A stretch of 64,000 nucleotides of DNA from Microbacterium sp. VKM Ac-2870 (GTDB lineage Bacteria > Actinomycetota > Actinomycetes > Actinomycetales > Microbacteriaceae), in NCBI RefSeq assembly GCF_015350795.1, contig NZ_JADKSH010000005.1, positions 1-64,000 on the forward strand, in the 5' to 3' direction. Below are positions 1,539-51,954 of this stretch, in pieces (the stretch's first letter is position 1; each line of letters opens with the position of its first letter). The notes under the pieces are model-generated. The model was not told the DNA's origin. It saw only the letters and a list, made by a program, of their open reading frames with translations, and did no database searches. The translations under genes were made by a program, and so were the position numbers.

Positions 1539-1774
1539 TCATTGAAACTTGAAAGTAAACATCAGGGAGCATCCCGCACCTACACCTGCAACAAATCCAC
1601 TCGTAGTTCCAAAAGCGGTGCCAATGCCCGCCTTATCGGCAGCATATGCTTCCCCTCCGCCAGTGACACCCATCACAAAAGCGGCACTGCACGACAGGTT
1701 TATTCCATTGTAGAGGTTCGGTACCGCTCCTTGGGAAGAGCTAGCCGCGAAGGAAAGGGCGTGAGGAACGAATC
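1539..1774 (-). pseudogene. Glycine-rich, Cys-containing peptide gene truncated by an IS element
   Basis: About 78 codons are open up to the IS boundary at 1775, with the stop at 1539-1541. The visible part has SSSQGAVPNLYNGINLSC, then a glycine- and alanine-rich stretch (VMGVTGGGEAYAAD, GTTSGFVAGVGAGC), and ends SLMFTFKFQ. No start codon or signal peptide remains because the 5' end is cut by the IS3-family element. No continuation was found on the far side of the IS. The two Cys residues and the small, hydrophobic, glycine-rich C-terminus resemble bacteriocin-type precursors, but no family was recognised. Confidence 0.5.
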
Positions 1775-1793
1775 GGTGACAGCTGATCGTTAG
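1775..1793 (+). repeat. Left terminal inverted repeat of IS3-family element
   Basis: Starts GGTGACAG and pairs with the reverse complement of 3003-3021, which also starts GGTGACAG. The first eight bases are identical; the inner part is imperfect. Confidence 0.55.
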
Positions 1794-1825
1794 TGCCGGG
1801 AGGCGCTGGCGGGGAGGATGTCATC

Positions 1826-2131
1826 ATGCCCGGTCCTTATCCCAGAGAGTTTCGCGAGGACGTTGTCGCGGTCGCTCGTAGCCGTGAGAGCGGCGTCACG
1901 ATCAAGCAGATCGCGACCGATTTCGGTATCAGCGAAGCGACGCTGCAGAACTGGCTCCGTCAGGCCGATGTCGAGGACGGCAACCGTCCCGGCCAGACCG
2001 CGGCCGACGCCGCCGAGGCGCGGGAGTTGAAGAAGCGGATACGGCTCCTCGAGCAGGAGAACGAGGTCCTCCGCCGTGCGGCGGCGTATCTGTCGCAGGC
2101 GAACCTGAAACTCGGTGGCTCCCCAAAATGA
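1826..2131 (+). CDS. IS3-family transposase orfA (helix-turn-helix protein)
   Basis: A 101-residue protein. The N-terminal half is a transposase_8-type helix-turn-helix (REFREDVVAVARSRESG, then IKQIATDFGISEATLQNWLR). The C-terminal half is a leucine-zipper coiled coil (ELKKRIRLLEQENEVLRRAA). It binds the element ends and is normally fused to OrfB by -1 frameshifting. The ATG at 1826 is preferred over the upstream start at 1793 because it is preceded by GGGGAGG and begins the conserved domain. It ends within an AAAATGA overlap with orfB. Confidence 0.85.
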   Translation: MPGPYPREFREDVVAVARSRESGVTIKQIATDFGISEATLQNWLRQADVEDGNRPGQTAADAAEARELKKRIRLLEQENEVLRRAAAYLSQANLKLGGSPK

Positions 2132-3006
2132 CGTACCCGCTCGTATCTGAGCTCGCCGACGCGGGGATTCCCGTGACGGTGTCGTGTCGGGTCCTCAAGC
2201 TCGCTCGCCAGCCCTACTACCGGTGGCGGAACGACCCGGTGCGGGATGCGGACGTGCTCCGCGCGTATCGGATCAACGCGCTGCACGACGCGCACCACGA
2301 CGATCCGACGTTCGGCTACCGCTACCTCGCTGACGAAGCGCGGCGTGCGGGGTGGCGGATGAGTCGGCGGACGGCGTGGAAGCTGTGCTCGCAGGCCGGG
2401 ATCCTCTCCTCTGCGCAACGCCGCCGACGCGGGAAGGGCAAGAAGGCCGGCCCGCCGGTGTTCGACGACCACGTCCAGCGCGTGTTCCGCGCCGATGCAC
2501 CTAACCGACTCTGGCTCACCGACATCACCGAGCACCGCACCACCGCCGAGGGCAAGCTCTACTGCTGTGCGATCAAAGACGTGTTCTCGAACCGGATCGT
2601 GGGCTACTCGATCTCGGATCGGATGACCGCGACACTCGCCGTCGACGCGCTCCGCAACGCCGTCGCCCGCCGCGGCGACGTCGCCGGTTGCATCCTGCAC
2701 GCCGATAGGGGCAGCCAGTTTCGGAGCAGGGCTATGGCCCGCGAGTTGCGCCGTCACGACATGGTCGGATCGATGGGCCGTGTCGGTGCGGCCGGGGACA
2801 ACGCGGCGATGGAGTCGTTCTGGTCGCTTCTTCAAACGAACGTGCTCAACCAGCAGCGGTGGGCGACGCGGCAAGAGCTGCGCCTGGCCATCGTCGTCTG
2901 GATCGAGCGCAAGTATCACCATCAACGAGCCCAAGACACCCTCGGCGGGTTGACGCCCATCGAGTTCGAAGCCAAGCTAACCAAGCCGCTCACACTCGCG
3001 GCCTAA
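2128..3006 (+). CDS. IS3-family transposase orfB (DDE catalytic protein)
   Basis: A 292-residue integrase-core transposase. It has an N-terminal HTH_21-like region (FGYRYLADEARRAGWRMS), then the rve catalytic domain. The catalytic residues are visible: Asp in LWLTDITEH, Asp in ILHADRGSQF and Glu in NAAMESFWSLLQ. It lies in the -1 frame relative to orfA, and the overlap contains an A-rich AAAATGA. This is compatible with programmed frameshifting to make an OrfAB fusion. No stops or missing motifs are seen, so the element may be active. Confidence 0.88.
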   Translation: MTYPLVSELADAGIPVTVSCRVLKLARQPYYRWRNDPVRDADVLRAYRINALHDAHHDDPTFGYRYLADEARRAGWRMSRRTAWKLCSQAGILSSAQRRRRGKGKKAGPPVFDDHVQRVFRADAPNRLWLTDITEHRTTAEGKLYCCAIKDVFSNRIVGYSISDRMTATLAVDALRNAVARRGDVAGCILHADRGSQFRSRAMARELRRHDMVGSMGRVGAAGDNAAMESFWSLLQTNVLNQQRWATRQELRLAIVVWIERKYHHQRAQDTLGGLTPIEFEAKLTKPLTLAA

Positions 3007-9323: not shown

Positions 9324-9704
9324 ATGACCGGAGCCCCGCGCGCCATGTTTTGGTACTACCTCGCAATTGGCGTGATCGCCGGAGTCATGATCGTTCTCCC
9401 GATGTATCTGCCACTGGCGTGGACAGGGCCGATCGCTGTGGGCGGCGCGCTTCTCATTTGGTTGATCGATCGCCTCTTCTTCGGCGGAGCCAGACCGTCG
9501 CGGTCTGGTTCCAGGCGTGACCAGCTGCCGTACATGCTGTGTCTTGCTGCACTATTTATCGGCTCCATGGCGCTTTCGTGGACGGTTCTGCGGGCGAACG
9601 GCATGTACTGGATTGGCTGGATCCTTGCCGCCATGACAGCAGCACTCATCGTCTTTCTTGGCCCCGTCATTCAGAAACGCGCTCGACCGAGCCTCCAGAA
9701 CTAG
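9324..9704 (+). CDS. Small membrane protein, unknown function
   Basis: A 126-residue protein with four hydrophobic segments (about residues 9-27, 31-50, 72-90 and 98-116). A basic loop (GGARPSRSGSRRDQ) separates the second and third. No family is recognised. It is convergent with a secreted Cys-containing protein gene, and a shared hairpin sits between them. Self-protection or transport for that secreted product is possible but unproven. Confidence 0.6.
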   Translation: MTGAPRAMFWYYLAIGVIAGVMIVLPMYLPLAWTGPIAVGGALLIWLIDRLFFGGARPSRSGSRRDQLPYMLCLAALFIGSMALSWTVLRANGMYWIGWILAAMTAALIVFLGPVIQKRARPSLQN

Positions 9705-9718
9705 TCCTGAAGGCTCGG
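9687..9718. terminator. Bidirectional hairpin between convergent genes
   Basis: Inverted arms CCGAGCCT (9687-9694) and AGGCTCGG (9711-9718), with additional partial pairing inside. It overlaps the end of the membrane protein gene and precedes the stop of the opposing gene at 9738. Confidence 0.5.
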
Positions 9719-9737
9719 CCGATATCGCAACGGATGT

Positions 9738-10211
9738 CTACACGGTGCAGGAGACGGCCAACCCAACCGCCGCTCCTGAACCCACCGCGACCCACGCGAC
9801 TGCGGTCTCGGGGGGGTAGATGACCAGCATCAAGCCGCCGTAGATGGCCAGTGCGCACCCCCAGGGGAACGGGGGCACGCTGCTGTAGTAACCCCCGCCG
9901 TTGTAGACCAGCGGGTAGTTCGCGACCATGTTCCCGTTGATGTACTTCTGCAAGAAGCTGCCCTTGCAATCGGTAGTTTGCTCCCCGACGTACAAGGACC
10001 AGCTGTTCCCATCGGGCATCTGACAGATGTACTCGTACTGGCCGGTATCCATCGGGTGCAAGGTGGTGTCCTTTTGCGCACTGGCTGGTTGCGATGGGGT
10101 CGTGGGGGGCGCGGAGCTATGCACTCCGTCGAGAGGGGCTGCATTCGCGGCTGTAGGTGCCAATGCAGAAAGCACCACCACCAGACCCACGATGAGGCTC
10201 TTGAGTTTCAT
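9738..10211 (-). CDS. Secreted Cys-containing protein with hydrophobic C-terminus
   Basis: A 157-residue protein with a clear signal peptide (MKLKSLIVGLVVVLSALAPTAANA). A Pro/Ser/Thr-rich linker follows. A polar part contains CQMPDGNSWSLYVGEQTTDC, and a hydrophobic glycine-rich tail (PWGCALAIYGGLMLVIYPP to GSGAAVGLAVSCTV) ends it. AGGAGAAG precedes the ATG at 10211. No family is recognised. The overall plan (signal peptide, Cys residues, hydrophobic Gly/Ala tail ending near a Cys) resembles bacteriocin precursors. It is divergent from a TetR gene with operator-like palindromes between them. Confidence 0.6.
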   Translation of the reverse strand: MKLKSLIVGLVVVLSALAPTAANAAPLDGVHSSAPPTTPSQPASAQKDTTLHPMDTGQYEYICQMPDGNSWSLYVGEQTTDCKGSFLQKYINGNMVANYPLVYNGGGYYSSVPPFPWGCALAIYGGLMLVIYPPETAVAWVAVGSGAAVGLAVSCTV

Positions 10212-45458: not shown

Positions 45459-45470
45459 CGGAGCGGGAGC

Positions 45471-45507
45471 GGAGCGGACCACGACATCGTGCGTCGTGGT
45501 CCGCTCC
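45471..45507. terminator. Bidirectional terminator, 15-bp stem
   Basis: A perfect stem GGAGCGGACCACGAC (45471-45485) with its complement (45493-45507) and a 7-base loop. It lies between the converging PPTase and membrane-peptide genes. Confidence 0.8.
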
Positions 45508-45516
45508 GGCTCACTT

Positions 45517-45738
45517 TCAGCGCTCGTCTTCCCTGGGACGACGCGCCAGCGTCACCGCGGAGCCGATGGTGAGCACCAGCCCGGCGATCAGTGCGATCGC
45601 CGTCGCCGTCAGGAGCCACGGCGACGCGGGCGCACGCGACGCCGACTCGATGCCCAGCGTCACGGCGAGAGCCACGCCGACGAGACAGATCACCGCCCCG
45701 ACGACCGCGAACAACCGCAACACGGTTGTAGAGAACAT
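45517..45738 (-). CDS. Small two-helix membrane protein next to a secreted peptide
   Basis: A 73-residue protein with two hydrophobic segments (about residues 7-28 and 41-64) and a charged C-terminus (ARRPREDER). The ATG is 11 bases after the stop of the secreted glycine-rich protein on the same strand. Size and position fit an immunity protein for that product; this is inference. Confidence 0.6.
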   Translation of the reverse strand: MFSTTVLRLFAVVGAVICLVGVALAVTLGIESASRAPASPWLLTATAIALIAGLVLTIGSAVTLARRPREDER

Positions 45739-45749
45739 GACCGGTCCCC

Positions 45750-46430
45750 TCACTGACCCCAGCAGCCGACGCCGCCGGTGACGTACACGTTGAGATAGAT
45801 GGCCTGCTTCTCGCGGCTCGCGGCCTTGCAGATGGCGATGATGCCGGCGCCTGCCGCCACAAGGCCTCCGGCCGCGGCGACGATACCGCCCGCCGGCGCA
45901 CCCGGACCCGTGGCAGCAGCAATGACGCCACCGACGGCCGCGACCGCGCCGCCCCCGCCCGCGATGGAGGCCATCAGAAGATCTGTATCGCACGAGTCGA
46001 GCGCGGTCTGCCAACCCCATCCCCAGAAGCCCGTGTAGCCTCGCGCCCCCGAACACGTCGCCGCGGCAGCAGCGACAGTGCGCGCCTGCGGCGTCGTCTG
46101 GGCATCGACCGCCGCCGTCAAGCCGACGACGCCGTTGCCGGCGGCGGTGTACGTCGCCGCGTAGTCTGCGACGTCGGACTCGCCCACCCCGGCCGCGAGA
46201 GCCGCTTCGGCGTCGAAGACTCCCGTCGCCCTATCGGTCGCATTCTCCAGCTGGGAAAGCGCCCGCTCTTGGGCAGCGGAGAGCTGCGAGACGGGGCCGT
46301 TGAGGGGTTGTTGCTCGGAGGGAGCTGACGCGGGATTCTCGGCAGCCGTCGCGGGGCTCGCCGTCAGGAGACCTCCTGCGACCAGGGCGGCTCCGGCGAG
46401 AATCGCCACCGGGCGCAATTGCAGTTTCAT
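45750..46430 (-). CDS. Secreted Gly/Ala-rich, Cys-containing protein (bacteriocin-like)
   Basis: A 226-residue protein. Signal peptide MKLQLRPVAILAGAALVAGG with an SPATA cleavage site; a helical pro-region (about 30-115); then TCSGARGYTGFWGWGWQTAL and SCDTDLLMASIAGGGGAVAA. A glycine- and alanine-rich hydrophobic core follows, then ICKAASREKQAIYLNVYVTG and a final GVGCWGQ. Four Cys residues lie in the last 110 residues. GAAGG precedes the ATG at 46430. I do not know the family. It is paired with the two-helix membrane protein at 45517. Confidence 0.6.
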   Translation of the reverse strand: MKLQLRPVAILAGAALVAGGLLTASPATAAENPASAPSEQQPLNGPVSQLSAAQERALSQLENATDRATGVFDAEAALAAGVGESDVADYAATYTAAGNGVVGLTAAVDAQTTPQARTVAAAAATCSGARGYTGFWGWGWQTALDSCDTDLLMASIAGGGGAVAAVGGVIAAATGPGAPAGGIVAAAGGLVAAGAGIIAICKAASREKQAIYLNVYVTGGVGCWGQ

Positions 46431-46693: not shown

Positions 46694-47986
46694 CTACGGG
46701 CGCGGAAGCGGGGGCAGCGCGGTTCGGTCGAGCCACGGAGTGAAGACGTCGTCGAGGTCGCGCCCGGCGACGCGGGCGGCCAGAGCGCGGAAGTCGTCGG
46801 TCGTCGCGAGGGCGTGCCGGTAGGTCTCGACCCACTCGCGGAGAAGGCGCGAGAAGACGACGTCGCCGACGGCGCATCGCAGGGCATACAGAGTGAGCGC
46901 GCCGCGCTTGTAGACGCGGTCGTCGAACATCAGGTCGGGCCCCGGATCGGACAGCAGAAGGTCCTGCGGCAGCTCGTGGAGGCGCGCGTAATGCTTGGCG
47001 GCCTTCTGCGCGACGGTCGGCCCGCCCGAGGCCTCGAACCACAGCCACTCCGAGAAGCACGCGAACCCCTCATTGAGCCAGATATCGCTCCAGCGGCCGA
47101 TACCCACACTGTTGCCGAACCACTGGTGCGCGAGCTCGTGGGCGATGAGACGCTGCTCGTCGGGGACCAGGTGGTTGCGACCGAAGACCGCGAGTCCCTG
47201 CGCCTCGAGGGGGATCTCGAGTTCGTCGTCGGTGACGACCAGCGCGCAGTCCTCCTGCGGATACGGTCCGAACGACGCCGCGAACAGCTCCAGCATGCGC
47301 GGCACCTCGGCGAATGCCCGCGTCACCTCGCGCCGCAGCGACACCGGAGCGAACACCCGCACCCCGTCGCTGTCGTCGAGAGCCATCTGCTCGTACGCAC
47401 CGATGTGCACCGCGACGAGGTAGGTCGCGATCGGCACGGACGACTCGGCCGTCACCGTGACCCGCCCGCCGCTCAGCGACGTACCGGTGGGCCTGCCCGT
47501 GAGGACGGGGAGGTACCCGGCATCCGTCGTCACCGACAAGCGCAGTGGCGCACGGGCATCGGGGCGGTCGTTGCAGGGGAACCACGTCGGGGCGCCGGTC
47601 GGCTGCGACGCGACGAGCGCGCCGTCTTCGAGCTCTTCCCAACCGATGGTGCCCCACCGCGAGCGCCGCGGCGCGGGCGCTCCGGCGTACGCCACGTCGA
47701 TCGAGAACCGCTCCCCCGCCTGCAGCCGGTGCGGGAGGGTGACGCGCAGCTTGCGTGGACCCTGCGAGAACCGGGTGCGACGGTTGCCGTCGACCCTCAC
47801 GCGCGTGGCACGCAGGCCGACGAGGTCGATGCTCACCGCCGAGACGGGCACGGTCGCCACCGCGTTGATGATCGTGCGCCCCTCGAGGCGGTTGGTGCGC
47901 ACACGGTAGTCGATCTCGACGTCGTACGATTCGACGTCGAACGAGGGGTCACCGCTCTCGGGGGTGTACGGGTCGTGACCGCTCAC
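46694..47986 (-). CDS. M1-family metallopeptidase
   Basis: A 430-residue zinc aminopeptidase. The HExxH-(18)-E site is HELAHQWFGNSV (about residue 284), with the third ligand in LNEGFACFSEWLW. The usual GAMEN substrate loop is replaced by PLEAQGLAVF, so specificity may be unusual. The beta-rich N domain is present; the C-terminal helical domain of larger M1 enzymes is missing. The start overlaps the stop of the NRPS-like gene by four bases, so the two are coupled. Confidence 0.88.
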   Translation of the reverse strand: MSGHDPYTPESGDPSFDVESYDVEIDYRVRTNRLEGRTIINAVATVPVSAVSIDLVGLRATRVRVDGNRRTRFSQGPRKLRVTLPHRLQAGERFSIDVAYAGAPAPRRSRWGTIGWEELEDGALVASQPTGAPTWFPCNDRPDARAPLRLSVTTDAGYLPVLTGRPTGTSLSGGRVTVTAESSVPIATYLVAVHIGAYEQMALDDSDGVRVFAPVSLRREVTRAFAEVPRMLELFAASFGPYPQEDCALVVTDDELEIPLEAQGLAVFGRNHLVPDEQRLIAHELAHQWFGNSVGIGRWSDIWLNEGFACFSEWLWFEASGGPTVAQKAAKHYARLHELPQDLLLSDPGPDLMFDDRVYKRGALTLYALRCAVGDVVFSRLLREWVETYRHALATTDDFRALAARVAGRDLDDVFTPWLDRTALPPLPRP

Positions 47987-50900
47987 GAGATCGACTGGTA
48001 GACGCGCACCTTCACCGCGTGCCAGGGACCGATGGGGTTGCCGCTCCAGCGGGAGCCGACCGGAACCGTCTCGCCACGCATCACGAGCGATGCCGGGCCC
48101 ACCGTCGCGTGGGCGCCGATACTCGCCGCGGGCAGGATCACACTGTGGGGGCCGAGCGTGGCTCCGGGCTCGAGTTCGACGGTGTCCATGCTCATGATTC
48201 GATCATGGAACAGGTGGGTCTGCACAACGCACCCCCGGTTGACGGTGGATCCGTCGCCGAGGGTGACCAGATCGGGCTCGGGCAGCCAGTAGCTGTCGCA
48301 CCAGACGCCGCGCCCGATCGTCGAGCCGAGCGAGCGCAGCCAGACCGCGAGGGCGGGCGTTCCTGCGGCGGCGCGGGCGAACCACGGCGCGGCGACCATC
48401 TCGGTGAAGGTGTCGGACACCTCGGTGCGCCAGACGAAACTCGACCAGAGCGGGTGCTCGCCCGCGCGGATGGGGCCGACGATCAGCCATTTGGCGAGGG
48501 TCGAGATGCCGGCTGCCACAGCGCCGGCCAGGAGGAGAACGATGCCGGAGAGAAGGATGGCTCCGGCGAGACCGATGACCTCGATGAGCCCGGCGAGCGT
48601 GAAGACGACGACGAGTCCCATCGCACAGGTGACCACCACGGGAACGAACCGACAGAGCTCCCACACCGCCCGCGCCGCCCGCAGCCGCGTCGGCGGCCGA
48701 TAGGTGCGCGATTCGTCGCCTTCGGCCGAACGCCGGCGCAACCGCACGGCGGGAGAACCCAGCCACGACGACCCGGGCTTCGCTTTGGCGGGGGCGGACG
48801 ACAACACCGCGACAAGGCCGTCGCGCGGGACCCGATGGCCGGGCGCGGCCATGCCCGAGTTGCCGAGGAACGCCCGCTTGCCGATGCGGACGGGACCGAT
48901 GCGCATCCATCCGCCGTGCAACTCGTAGGACGCGACCATCGTGTCGTCGGCGAGGAACGCACCGTCCTCGATGCGCGTCAGCGACGGGATGAGCAGCACC
49001 GTGGATGCTTCGACGTCACGGCCGACCTCTGCGCCGAGCATGCGCAGCCACACCGGGGTGAACAGGCTCGAGTACAGCGGGAAGAGGATCGTTCGTGCCG
49101 AGTCGAGGAGGCGCTCGATGGTCCACGCCTGCCACCCGATACGGCTGCGCACCGGATGGGTGCCCTCGTGCAGCCCGATCGAGAGCAGTCGAACGGTCAG
49201 CACGACGACGCCGGCGAACACGACGCCAGCCACGATCACGCCGGGCACCAGCCACGCCAGCGCACCCCCGAGGGCGGCGGCAAGCGTCGGCGCCCCGTCG
49301 ATCCCGCGTGCCACGACCAGCGCACCGGCGGCGAACGACACGAGCGGCAGCAGCGCGAGCGCCACCGCCGACGCGGCGTACGCCCACAGCCAGCGCGTCG
49401 GCGCCGGCGCACGGTCGGAGGGCCACTGGGCCGATTTGCCGCCCACACGAACGGCGGGCGATCCTGCCCACGTCTGGTCTGCTCGCACGCGGCCGAACAC
49501 CGCCGAGCCGGGGGCGATCTCCGCACGACGCCCGATGCGCGTTCCCGGAGCGAGGGTGCTGCGCGAGCCCACCGTTGCACCGGCGCCGATCCGGATGCCG
49601 CCGATGCGAACGACATCGCCGTCGATCCAGTAACCGGAGAGGTCGACCTCGGGTTCGATGGCGGCCCCATCGCCGATGTCGAGCATGCCCGTGATCGGCG
49701 GGAGTGCGTGCAGGTCGACGCCGGCGCCGATGCGCGCGCCCAGCGCACGGGCGTAGTAACTCACCCAGGGAGCCCCGGCCAGACCCACGGCATCCACCTG
49801 GTCGGCGATCTGCTCGGCCAACCAAAGACGGATATGCACCCAGCCGCCGCGCGGGTAGTCACCCGGGCGCACCCCGGCGAGCAGCAGCCGCGCCGATGCC
49901 GCAGCGATCGCCATGCGGCCGAACGGCGTGGAGAAGACCAACAGCCCGACCAGGAGCACCCACAGCGGCGCGTCGGGAAGCACCTCGAAGCCCGGGAACA
50001 GCTGCAGGATCGCCGATGCCGTCAGCAGATAGAGCATCCACCGGATGCCGGAGAGGATGAACAACGGCACGGCGAGGATCGTCTGCGCCCACTGCGCCCG
50101 ACGGGGCGTCGGCTGCGGACGGTGGAAGTCCGTGGCGGCGTCCTCCTGCAAACCGGTGCCGAGGGCTTTGGCCATCGCGCCCAGCCGGGGAACGTCGTAG
50201 ATGTCGGCGACCGAGAACTCCGGCACCCGCGTGCGGATACGCGACACGAGCTGCGCGGCGGCGAGCGAGCCGCCGCCGAGATCGAAGAAATCGGTCTTGC
50301 GATCGGTGACCGGCATGCCGAGCACGGCGTACCACTGCTGGGCGAGCCACGCTTCGCCCGGCGAGAGGTCCGACGCGGGCAGTTCTACATCGGGCAGCGG
50401 CCAGGGCAGCGCGGCGCGGTCGACCTTTCCCGACGTACGCACCGGCAGATCGTCCACGACCGCGAGCAGCGGGACCATCGGCGCGGGAAGTCGGGCAGCC
50501 AGGTCGGCCCGGGCAGCCAGCCGATCGAAGTCGGGTGCGGCGGCGAGATAGCCGACCAGCACGGGAACGCCGGCTTCGGTGGTGCGCACCGCTGCCGCAG
50601 CCCCGTTGACGCCAGGCAGCTCTTGGAGAGCGGCCTCCACTTCACCGAGCTCGATCCGACGACCGCCGACCTTCACCTGGTCGTCGGCGCGCCCCTGGAA
50701 GATGAGCCCCTCGGTCTCGAACCGGACGAGGTCGCCGGACCGATAAGCGCGCTCCCAGCCGAGCGTCGGCATGGGGGCATACTTCTCGGCATCCTTCGCC
50801 GGGTCGAGGTAACGGGCCAGTCCGACGCCGCCGATGATCAGCTCGCCGACGCCGCCCTCCGCGACCGGGGTGCCTTCCGCATCGACGACGGCCAGCGTCC

Positions 50901-51954
50901 AGCCATCCAGCGGCAATCCGATGCGCACGGGAACCGAACCGTCCAGCGGCGCGGCGCACGCGACGACTGTCGCCTCGGTGGGGCCATAGGTGTTCCACAC
51001 TTCGCGGCCGTCACCGACGAGCCGGGCGGCAAGCTCAGGCGGACACGCCTCGCCACCGAAGATCAACAGGCGGACGTTCTCGATCGCGTCGGCGGGCCAC
51101 ATCGCCGCGAGCGTGGGCACCGTGGAGACGACGGTGATCCCCTGGCGCAACAGCCAGGGCGCCAGATCTTCCCCCGAGCGCACGAGCGACCGGGGCGCGG
51201 GTACCAGACAGGCGCCGTGGCGCCATGCCAGCCACATCTCCTCGCAGGAGGCGTCGAACGCGACCGACAGCCCTGCCAGAACGCGATCGTGGGCGCCGAG
51301 GGGCGCGTGCTGCACGAACAGGCGCGCCTCGGCATCCACGAAGGCGGCCGCCGCGCGGTGATTGACAGCGACACCCTTGGGCACCCCGGTCGAGCCGGAC
51401 GTGAAGATGATCCATGCGTCGTCGTCGACGGTCGGGGGCGGCACGGCGATGATCGCCTGGGTGGCCGGATGGGGGGCTGTCCCCTGGAACAACGCGGTCG
51501 CGGCCGTCACCGACGCATCCGCGCGCGCCGGCTGCTCAGAATCTTCTTCGCCGGATCCGGATGCCGGGGCGAACTCGCCCTCTCCCGTGATGACGCCGCG
51601 CACGCGCGCCTCACCGAACACGAGCCGCGCCCGTTCGTCGGGGTCATCCGCGTCGACCGGCACGTATGCGGCCCCCGCGGCGATGATGCCGAGGATCGCG
51701 ATATAAAGCTCCTTCGAGCCCGACGGCATCCGAACGCCGACACGATCGCCACGCCGCACTCCGGCGTCGTGCAGCCGGGCGGCCGTCGCACCGACGCGCG
51801 CCATCAGCTCGCGGTAGCTGAGGGCACCAGAGCCGTCGTCGATCGCGGATGCTTCGGGATGGGCGAGCGTCGTGGCGCGAAGGATGTCGAGCAGCGTGCG
51901 CGCGGGCGGGGCGACGGCGGATCTGTCCAGTGCGCTCTGCGCGGATGCCGTCAC
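47983..51954 (-). CDS. Pls/PosA-type NRPS-like synthetase with membrane and hexapeptide domains
   Basis: A 1323-residue protein. The adenylation domain (about 20-520) has IIFTSGSTGVPKGVAVNHR, NTYGPTEATV, YRSGDLVRFETEG and VRTSGKVDRAAL (Lys). The carrier domain has the phosphopantetheine Ser in DFFDLGGGSLAA (about 556). The C-terminal 700 residues alternate transmembrane helices with left-handed beta-helix (LbetaH) segments (IGDGAAIEPEVDLSGYWI, IGRRAEIAPGSAVFGRV). This is the plan of epsilon-poly-lysine synthetase and related Pls proteins. The amino acid used is not deducible by eye. Confidence 0.85.
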   Translation of the reverse strand: MTASAQSALDRSAVAPPARTLLDILRATTLAHPEASAIDDGSGALSYRELMARVGATAARLHDAGVRRGDRVGVRMPSGSKELYIAILGIIAAGAAYVPVDADDPDERARLVFGEARVRGVITGEGEFAPASGSGEEDSEQPARADASVTAATALFQGTAPHPATQAIIAVPPPTVDDDAWIIFTSGSTGVPKGVAVNHRAAAAFVDAEARLFVQHAPLGAHDRVLAGLSVAFDASCEEMWLAWRHGACLVPAPRSLVRSGEDLAPWLLRQGITVVSTVPTLAAMWPADAIENVRLLIFGGEACPPELAARLVGDGREVWNTYGPTEATVVACAAPLDGSVPVRIGLPLDGWTLAVVDAEGTPVAEGGVGELIIGGVGLARYLDPAKDAEKYAPMPTLGWERAYRSGDLVRFETEGLIFQGRADDQVKVGGRRIELGEVEAALQELPGVNGAAAAVRTTEAGVPVLVGYLAAAPDFDRLAARADLAARLPAPMVPLLAVVDDLPVRTSGKVDRAALPWPLPDVELPASDLSPGEAWLAQQWYAVLGMPVTDRKTDFFDLGGGSLAAAQLVSRIRTRVPEFSVADIYDVPRLGAMAKALGTGLQEDAATDFHRPQPTPRRAQWAQTILAVPLFILSGIRWMLYLLTASAILQLFPGFEVLPDAPLWVLLVGLLVFSTPFGRMAIAAASARLLLAGVRPGDYPRGGWVHIRLWLAEQIADQVDAVGLAGAPWVSYYARALGARIGAGVDLHALPPITGMLDIGDGAAIEPEVDLSGYWIDGDVVRIGGIRIGAGATVGSRSTLAPGTRIGRRAEIAPGSAVFGRVRADQTWAGSPAVRVGGKSAQWPSDRAPAPTRWLWAYAASAVALALLPLVSFAAGALVVARGIDGAPTLAAALGGALAWLVPGVIVAGVVFAGVVVLTVRLLSIGLHEGTHPVRSRIGWQAWTIERLLDSARTILFPLYSSLFTPVWLRMLGAEVGRDVEASTVLLIPSLTRIEDGAFLADDTMVASYELHGGWMRIGPVRIGKRAFLGNSGMAAPGHRVPRDGLVAVLSSAPAKAKPGSSWLGSPAVRLRRRSAEGDESRTYRPPTRLRAARAVWELCRFVPVVVTCAMGLVVVFTLAGLIEVIGLAGAILLSGIVLLLAGAVAAGISTLAKWLIVGPIRAGEHPLWSSFVWRTEVSDTFTEMVAAPWFARAAAGTPALAVWLRSLGSTIGRGVWCDSYWLPEPDLVTLGDGSTVNRGCVVQTHLFHDRIMSMDTVELEPGATLGPHSVILPAASIGAHATVGPASLVMRGETVPVGSRWSGNPIGPWHAVKVRVYQSIS

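Follow-up and report, generated by a model that had tools for sequence, protein, structure and literature searches.

Organization of the locus and of the putative secreted precursor

The core locus lies at positions 45517 to 46430, on the reverse strand, of the 64,000-nucleotide stretch of Microbacterium DNA that was analysed as a whole and is referred to here as the window. It comprises an ORF for an apparently secreted precursor of 226 aa, the signal peptide of which was recognized by eye, and, beginning with an ATG at 45738, 11 nt past the precursor stop, a second ORF encoding a partner of 73 aa with two hydrophobic segments (Table 1). The earlier note on this DNA had described here a secreted-looking Gly/Ala-rich protein with four Cys residues and a two-helix partner, and that description is borne out, the pair recurring in relatives with Ka/Ks values below 1. 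A strong hairpin directly 3' of the partner gene is the probable end of the transcript; it is absent from the syntenic locus of genome G248 in the nucleotide alignment. The four flanking ORFs that were scanned, one of them in part, gave matches to NUDIX/His phosphatase, Peptidase_M1 and hexapeptide repeat, with one left without assignment, and no exporter gene was found among them. The protein encoded at 47983-51954 (1323 aa) has an adenylation-like start, by eye, and the hexapeptide-repeat match in the C-terminal part that was scanned, a combination with some resemblance to polyamino-acid synthetase.

Table 1. Coordinates of features in the window
Feature	Position	Strand	Basis
Secreted precursor gene, 226 aa	45750..46430	-	Start ATG 46430, stop TGA 45752-45750; ORF and homologues L006, L004
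Apparent Sec signal peptide, residues 1-30	46341..46430	-	Basic n-region, then hydrophobic core and SPATAA, as seen by eye
Variable pro-domain, residues 31-122, with a small predicted fold at residues 50-110	46065..46340	-	AF2, Ka/Ks
Predicted mature domain (residues 123-226) with four Cys and the predicted order bb-aa-bb	45753..46064	-	Alignments A10/A13, PDB profile matches
187-bp stretch missing from the syntenic G248 locus, codons 150-212	45795..45981	-	Nucleotide alignment and anchor count
Proposed immunity protein (partner) of 73 aa, with two hydrophobic segments and a tail of net charge +1	45517..45738	-	ORF, pairing statistics
Strong hairpin directly 3' of partner	45465..45512	-	RNA fold, -39.2 kcal/mol
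IS3-type element, two ORFs (1793-2131 and 2128-3006)	1793-3006		Named by eye

The four Cys residues of the precursor (126, 147, 201 and 223) all lie in its Gly/Ala-rich C-terminal half, and the conserved part of the protein is this four-Cys C-terminal domain of about 100 aa. Before the one constant domain the N-terminal parts vary, and at least three types were distinguished by eye: the 16-row set has short pro-domains of the 'FD..A..G' kind, L037, L053, L055 and L056 have a long N-terminal part that includes a VVADP segment, and further kinds occur in L044-L046 and in L054, L057 and L059. A similar N-terminus is found in relatives, the export signal itself being judged by eye, and inspection by eye revealed no conserved cleavage site. 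In the L045 and L046 precursors a stretch resembling an export signal is preceded by an N-terminal stretch with a CxxC motif, which may amount to an in-built thiol-disulfide domain.

In a 26-row alignment (A13) the first and second Cys residues were never separated, nor were the third and fourth: 17 rows have the pattern CCCC, eight --CC and one CC--, counts that come from related sequences and have only a few independent events behind them. Because the residues are kept or lost pairwise, the alignment suggests that disulfides join C1 to C2 (126-147) and C3 to C4 (201-223) in the mature domain. Outside A13, L044 and L046 show the CC-- pattern by eye, and L044, L045 and L046 each carry extra Cys in the domain. 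AlphaFold2 models built from two sequences were poor (pLDDT 48.6 for the full-length protein and 47.3 for the core), with values of 64-87 per 10-residue block over precursor residues 51-110, and the predicted order strand-strand, helix-helix, strand-strand in the mature domain is a hint only. A fold comparison run with the model of the full-length protein aligned 15 chains, of which 12 had Z>=2 and the best reached 5.4, and was discarded as meaningless at such model quality.

Ka/Ks was below 1 in all comparisons made (range 0.08-0.55). In the comparison of the window with L006 the core gave 0.08, the pro part 0.22 and the partner 0.55, with Ks saturated at 1.1-2.2, and the secreted gene as a whole 0.17 (Ks 1.6, likewise saturated); against G248, the only comparison in which Ks is unsaturated (0.29-0.32), the ratio was 0.19 for the partner and 0.23 for the remaining part of the secreted gene.

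In Pfam and NCBIfam no curated cut-off was reached by the precursor, the partner or the relatives scanned, and the five window proteins scanned against PHROGs gave weak matches, none of them accepted. Among the matches that were below a curated cut-off, or had none, and were not accepted are Metal_resist (E 0.024) and, for the partner, Phage_holin_2 (E 0.017) and phrog_37134 (E 0.0045). Nothing was matched by tblastn, whether plasmids were searched with the window protein and one relative (E limit 0.01) or plasmids and phages with a consensus (E limit 10), and of 179 pattern stretches found in viral contigs with a five-member alignment none was confirmed. We found no published description of this protein family in the literature searched, which covers few of the subscription journals. 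By the features set out above, gene order among them, one can recognize a bacteriocin-like family to which the scans of Pfam, NCBIfam and PHROG assign no name.

Relatives, partner genes and decayed loci

Two relatives with the same gene order as the window are L006, on a contig of a Microbacterium metagenome-assembled genome (67% identity for the secreted protein, 39% for the partner), and L004 in G070 (37 and 22%, respectively). A third and weakest early match, L005 in G095, was rejected as a frame overlying another enzyme gene, as judged by eye. Profile searches were then read at five taxonomic levels, from genus to phylum, in samples that overlap and each count the genome's own entry. At genus level 17 of 295 genomes matched and 11 were kept, five with intact and six with decayed loci; in the family the figures were 19 of 398 and 14 (13 with intact loci, and G451 decayed), in the order ten of 327 and eight, in the class three of 325 with the own genome the sole one kept, and in the phylum four of 396 and three. 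The genus matches that were dropped (G259, G284, G011, G337, G291 and G211) are weak (E 4e-5 to 4e-4), involve N-terminal profile positions and fall inside open frames of 552-1534 aa. Also dropped were G543, G432, G579, G654 and G393 in the family, as weak (E 2e-4 to 8e-4), L060 and L061 in the order and L064 and L065 in the class once their ORFs had been read, and G432 again in the phylum search. In all, 28 intact members, the window included, and nine decayed loci were inspected. The relatives are scattered over several actinobacterial families, and their presence is patchy.

A partner was counted where an ORF of 50-100 aa with exactly two hydrophobic segments starts between -30 and +120 from the stop of the preceding gene. 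Such a small two-TM ORF lies directly downstream of 21 of the 28 intact members, as against three of 64 flanking genes taken as controls, these being mechanical ORFs of at least 120 aa (Fisher P 6e-12, an optimistic value since the members are related). Elsewhere in the window the same arrangement follows one of 56 ORFs, and in this single case the ORF counted is part of the 9324-9704 gene, preceded by an ORF that overlaps it. Seven members (L028, L044, L045, L046, L054, L056 and L059) have no ORF that fits; all except L059 are nevertheless followed by a hydrophobic ORF, differing in length, spacing or segment number, and downstream of the intact secreted gene of L059 no partner-like ORF was found. 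In L054 a single secreted gene is followed by two tandem partner-like genes (reverse strand, 1823-2026 and 2168-2359), an arrangement suggestive of duplicated immunity.

The secreted gene is broken in nine loci (G248, G050, G003, G332, G184, G225, G451, G1254 and a second locus in G1349), although sequencing errors may account for the broken frame in G451 and G1254. In six of the nine a partner with the length and segments defined above is kept; in a seventh, G332, the partner has kept both segments but has a longer and altered tail, and in G184 and G225 no partner is kept. The clearest case is G248, which is syntenic with the window, with the M1 peptidase upstream as in the window. Here a clean deletion of 187 bp takes out almost the whole of the two predicted helices and causes a frameshift, and the partner remains open. 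Loss of the secreted gene with retention of the partner would be expected of a partner that guards against the secreted product, an asymmetry that is also partly expected because the secreted gene is three times longer, and that was observed in searches started from the secreted protein. The orphan two-TM genes beside the decayed copies may on this basis be leftover immunity genes.

Likeness to circular bacteriocins and precedents among secreted precursors

A whole-protein profile of 16 sequences, compared with PDB sequences, placed the circular bacteriocin enterocin NKR-5-3B at the top (E 0.0036). Profiles of the core gave the same first match, with E 0.0011 for 16 rows, 5.1e-5 for 22 and 1.2e-4 for 26, and plantacyclin B21AG came second with E 0.35, 0.077 and 0.021, respectively; the similarity to these two proteins spans about 46 residues. 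Acidocin B took third place in the 22-row search (E 1.1) and fourth place in the 26-row search (E 2.1), where an unrelated protein (E 0.55) ranks ahead of it. The reversed core profile, a control run with the 16 rows, matched an unrelated cytochrome alone (E 0.89). By hhalign the 26-row profile aligned to seven circular sequences, a set that includes NKR-5-3B and plantacyclin, picked because they were already matches, with a score of 29.8 and a probability of 75%; 100 column shuffles scored 14.9 at most and the reversed profile 15.4. Individually, five of the seven scored higher than any of the 200 shuffles made from them, the score of L048 being reached by one shuffle and that of a carnocyclin fragment by 13. 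An earlier hhalign comparison of the 16-row core with four circular sequences gave a probability of 2%, with the score reached by one of 100 shuffles and by the reversed core. We take the likeness of the helical stretch to circular bacteriocins as probably real, through either descent or shared constraint. Two circular bacteriocin genes above the PF09221 cut-off (L048 and L049) occur in the same actinobacterial family (f34) as the distant relatives L044-L046.

The profile similarity to circular bacteriocins such as NKR-5-3B, AS-48 and plantacyclin B21AG runs along the hydrophobic helical stretch, and the pairing with a gene for a small hydrophobic membrane protein, for which an immunity role is proposed here, is a further point of likeness, circular bacteriocin clusters being described as encoding a small, cationic, hydrophobic immunity protein (PMC6131525, PMC7452424). 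Unlike circular bacteriocins, the window protein has an apparent Sec signal, a large pro-domain, four Cys residues and a C-terminal CxxQ. Unlike their clusters, the four flanking ORFs scanned in the window (one in part) include neither an ABC transporter nor a DUF95/SpoIIM gene. Because it differs in its ends, its precursor and its neighbours and has no match to the family model, the secreted protein is very probably not a member of the circular bacteriocin family (uberolysin/carnocyclin, PF09221), and our best reading is that it is a distant relative of these bacteriocins or is convergent with them.

Bacteriocins released from a larger secreted precursor offer precedents for such a layout, likened here by description. 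According to PMC10888436, closticin 574 is an 82-aa C-terminal bacteriocin derived from a pre-protein of 309 aa, of which 27 aa form the signal peptide, with processing probably outside the cell. The closticin-like CLB was inactive in the test reported there; the ends of mature CLB, as read from the primers given, lack the Cys and CxxQ ends of the window family. Actinobacterial examples are described in PMC5756557. PAMP of Propionibacterium jensenii has a 198-aa precursor with a 27-aa signal peptide, and its active C-terminal part is freed by proteolysis outside the cell, much as proposed for the window protein, the mature peptide (6383 Da) being smaller than the predicted mature domain in the window. 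Propionicin SM1 (about 20 kDa, from a 207-aa precursor with a 27-aa signal) is also actinobacterial; the passages on it mention removal of the signal and no pro-domain, unlike the window precursor.

A candidate bacteriocin and the other loci of the window

We consider it likely that the two genes form a bacteriocin and immunity unit, the bacteriocin being a linear, Sec-exported and disulfide-pinned protein that acts on the membranes of related bacteria. Under the mechanism that we infer, the precursor would leave the cell through Sec, given the signal peptide recognized by eye, and an extracellular protease would cut off the pro-domain; the C-terminal domain of about 100 aa, pinned by its two predicted disulfides, would then enter the membranes of related bacteria by way of a hydrophobic helical hairpin, while the two-TM partner would shield the producer. 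More tentatively, the pair may represent a new class of minimal two-gene actinobacterial bacteriocins, linear relatives of the circular ones in which two disulfides replace head-to-tail closure and which, being exported by Sec and having exchangeable pro-domains, need neither a cyclase nor a dedicated exporter. Such a minimal class would, if real, bridge linear and circular bacteriocins in evolution. The unit also lends itself to asking directly whether, in saposin-type bacteriocins, disulfides can do the work of backbone cyclisation; with two genes only, expression tests are simple.

A different possibility is that the two genes encode a secreted module without antagonistic function, for example a signalling, surface or developmental protein paired with a receptor or anchor in the membrane. 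A net positive charge is a feature of many known bacteriocins. The window core has a net charge of 0 and 16 cores span -5 to +5, so that the cores are not consistently cationic, and the low similarity of the partners (18-39% identity to the window partner in four relatives) fits co-diverging receptor pairs as well as it fits immunity. Against such a module stand the patchy occurrence (after inspection, 11 genomes of the 295 from the genus, six of them with decayed loci), the retention of the partner where the secreted gene is lost (six or seven of the nine decayed loci) and the similarity to circular bacteriocins, and we regard it as rather unlikely. That the product is itself a true circular bacteriocin of the uberolysin/carnocyclin family appears very improbable: the profile similarity to NKR-5-3B and plantacyclin would be in keeping with it, but the precursor is apparently of the Sec type, Cys residues lie at both ends of the domain, the C-terminal CxxQ is conserved in the 16-row core, ABC and DUF95/SpoIIM genes are missing from the four flanking ORFs scanned, and a scan of 16 members (E<=10, with HMMER filters on) brought no match to PF09221.

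The earlier note had joined the core locus with two others, 987-1774 and 9324-10211, in one possible bacteriocin family. For the core locus the suggestion of a possible bacteriocin with its partner is supported, by inference from pairing, decay, varied N-termini and profile similarity; that of a family of three loci is not. The hydrophobic, Gly-rich tails with a late Cys on which the grouping was based are present, by eye, in all three proteins, but a shared profile is absent: the protein encoded at 9738-10211 scored negatively, and the 987 fragment, at 8.5 bits with the 16-row core profile and 2.5 with a wide one, falls within the range of its shuffled controls (best of 100 shuffles, 8.6 and 10.5 bits). 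The neighbouring membrane proteins, too, are of unequal size, and common membership of the three loci in one family is hardly credible.

The locus at 987-1774 had been said to share the architecture of the core locus, a comparison that neither gene confirms. The frame of the supposed secreted protein is open back to about 1820, and because it has no ATG, GTG or TTG before GTG 1676 it lacks a signal peptide; since it has no start codon for one and adjoins the IS3-type element, we read it as a fragment. The stretch 1539-3006 thus holds the C-terminal fragment of a Gly-rich protein with two Cys residues together with that element, and the neighbour at 987-1511 encodes a hydrophobic protein of 174 aa in which several hydrophobic stretches, more than in a two-helix protein, can be made out by eye. 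Of the pair at 9324-10211, the secreted gene (9738-10211) is present as described, and the gene convergent with it encodes a membrane protein of 126 aa with more than two hydrophobic stretches by eye. For the 157-aa secreted-looking product, with its hydrophobic Cys tail, a search of the plasmid collection gave a single weak outside match, to a hypothetical protein encoded on a plasmid of Arthrobacter alpinus (33% identity across 48% of the length), and the convergent genes are possibly a separate bacteriocin-like pair.
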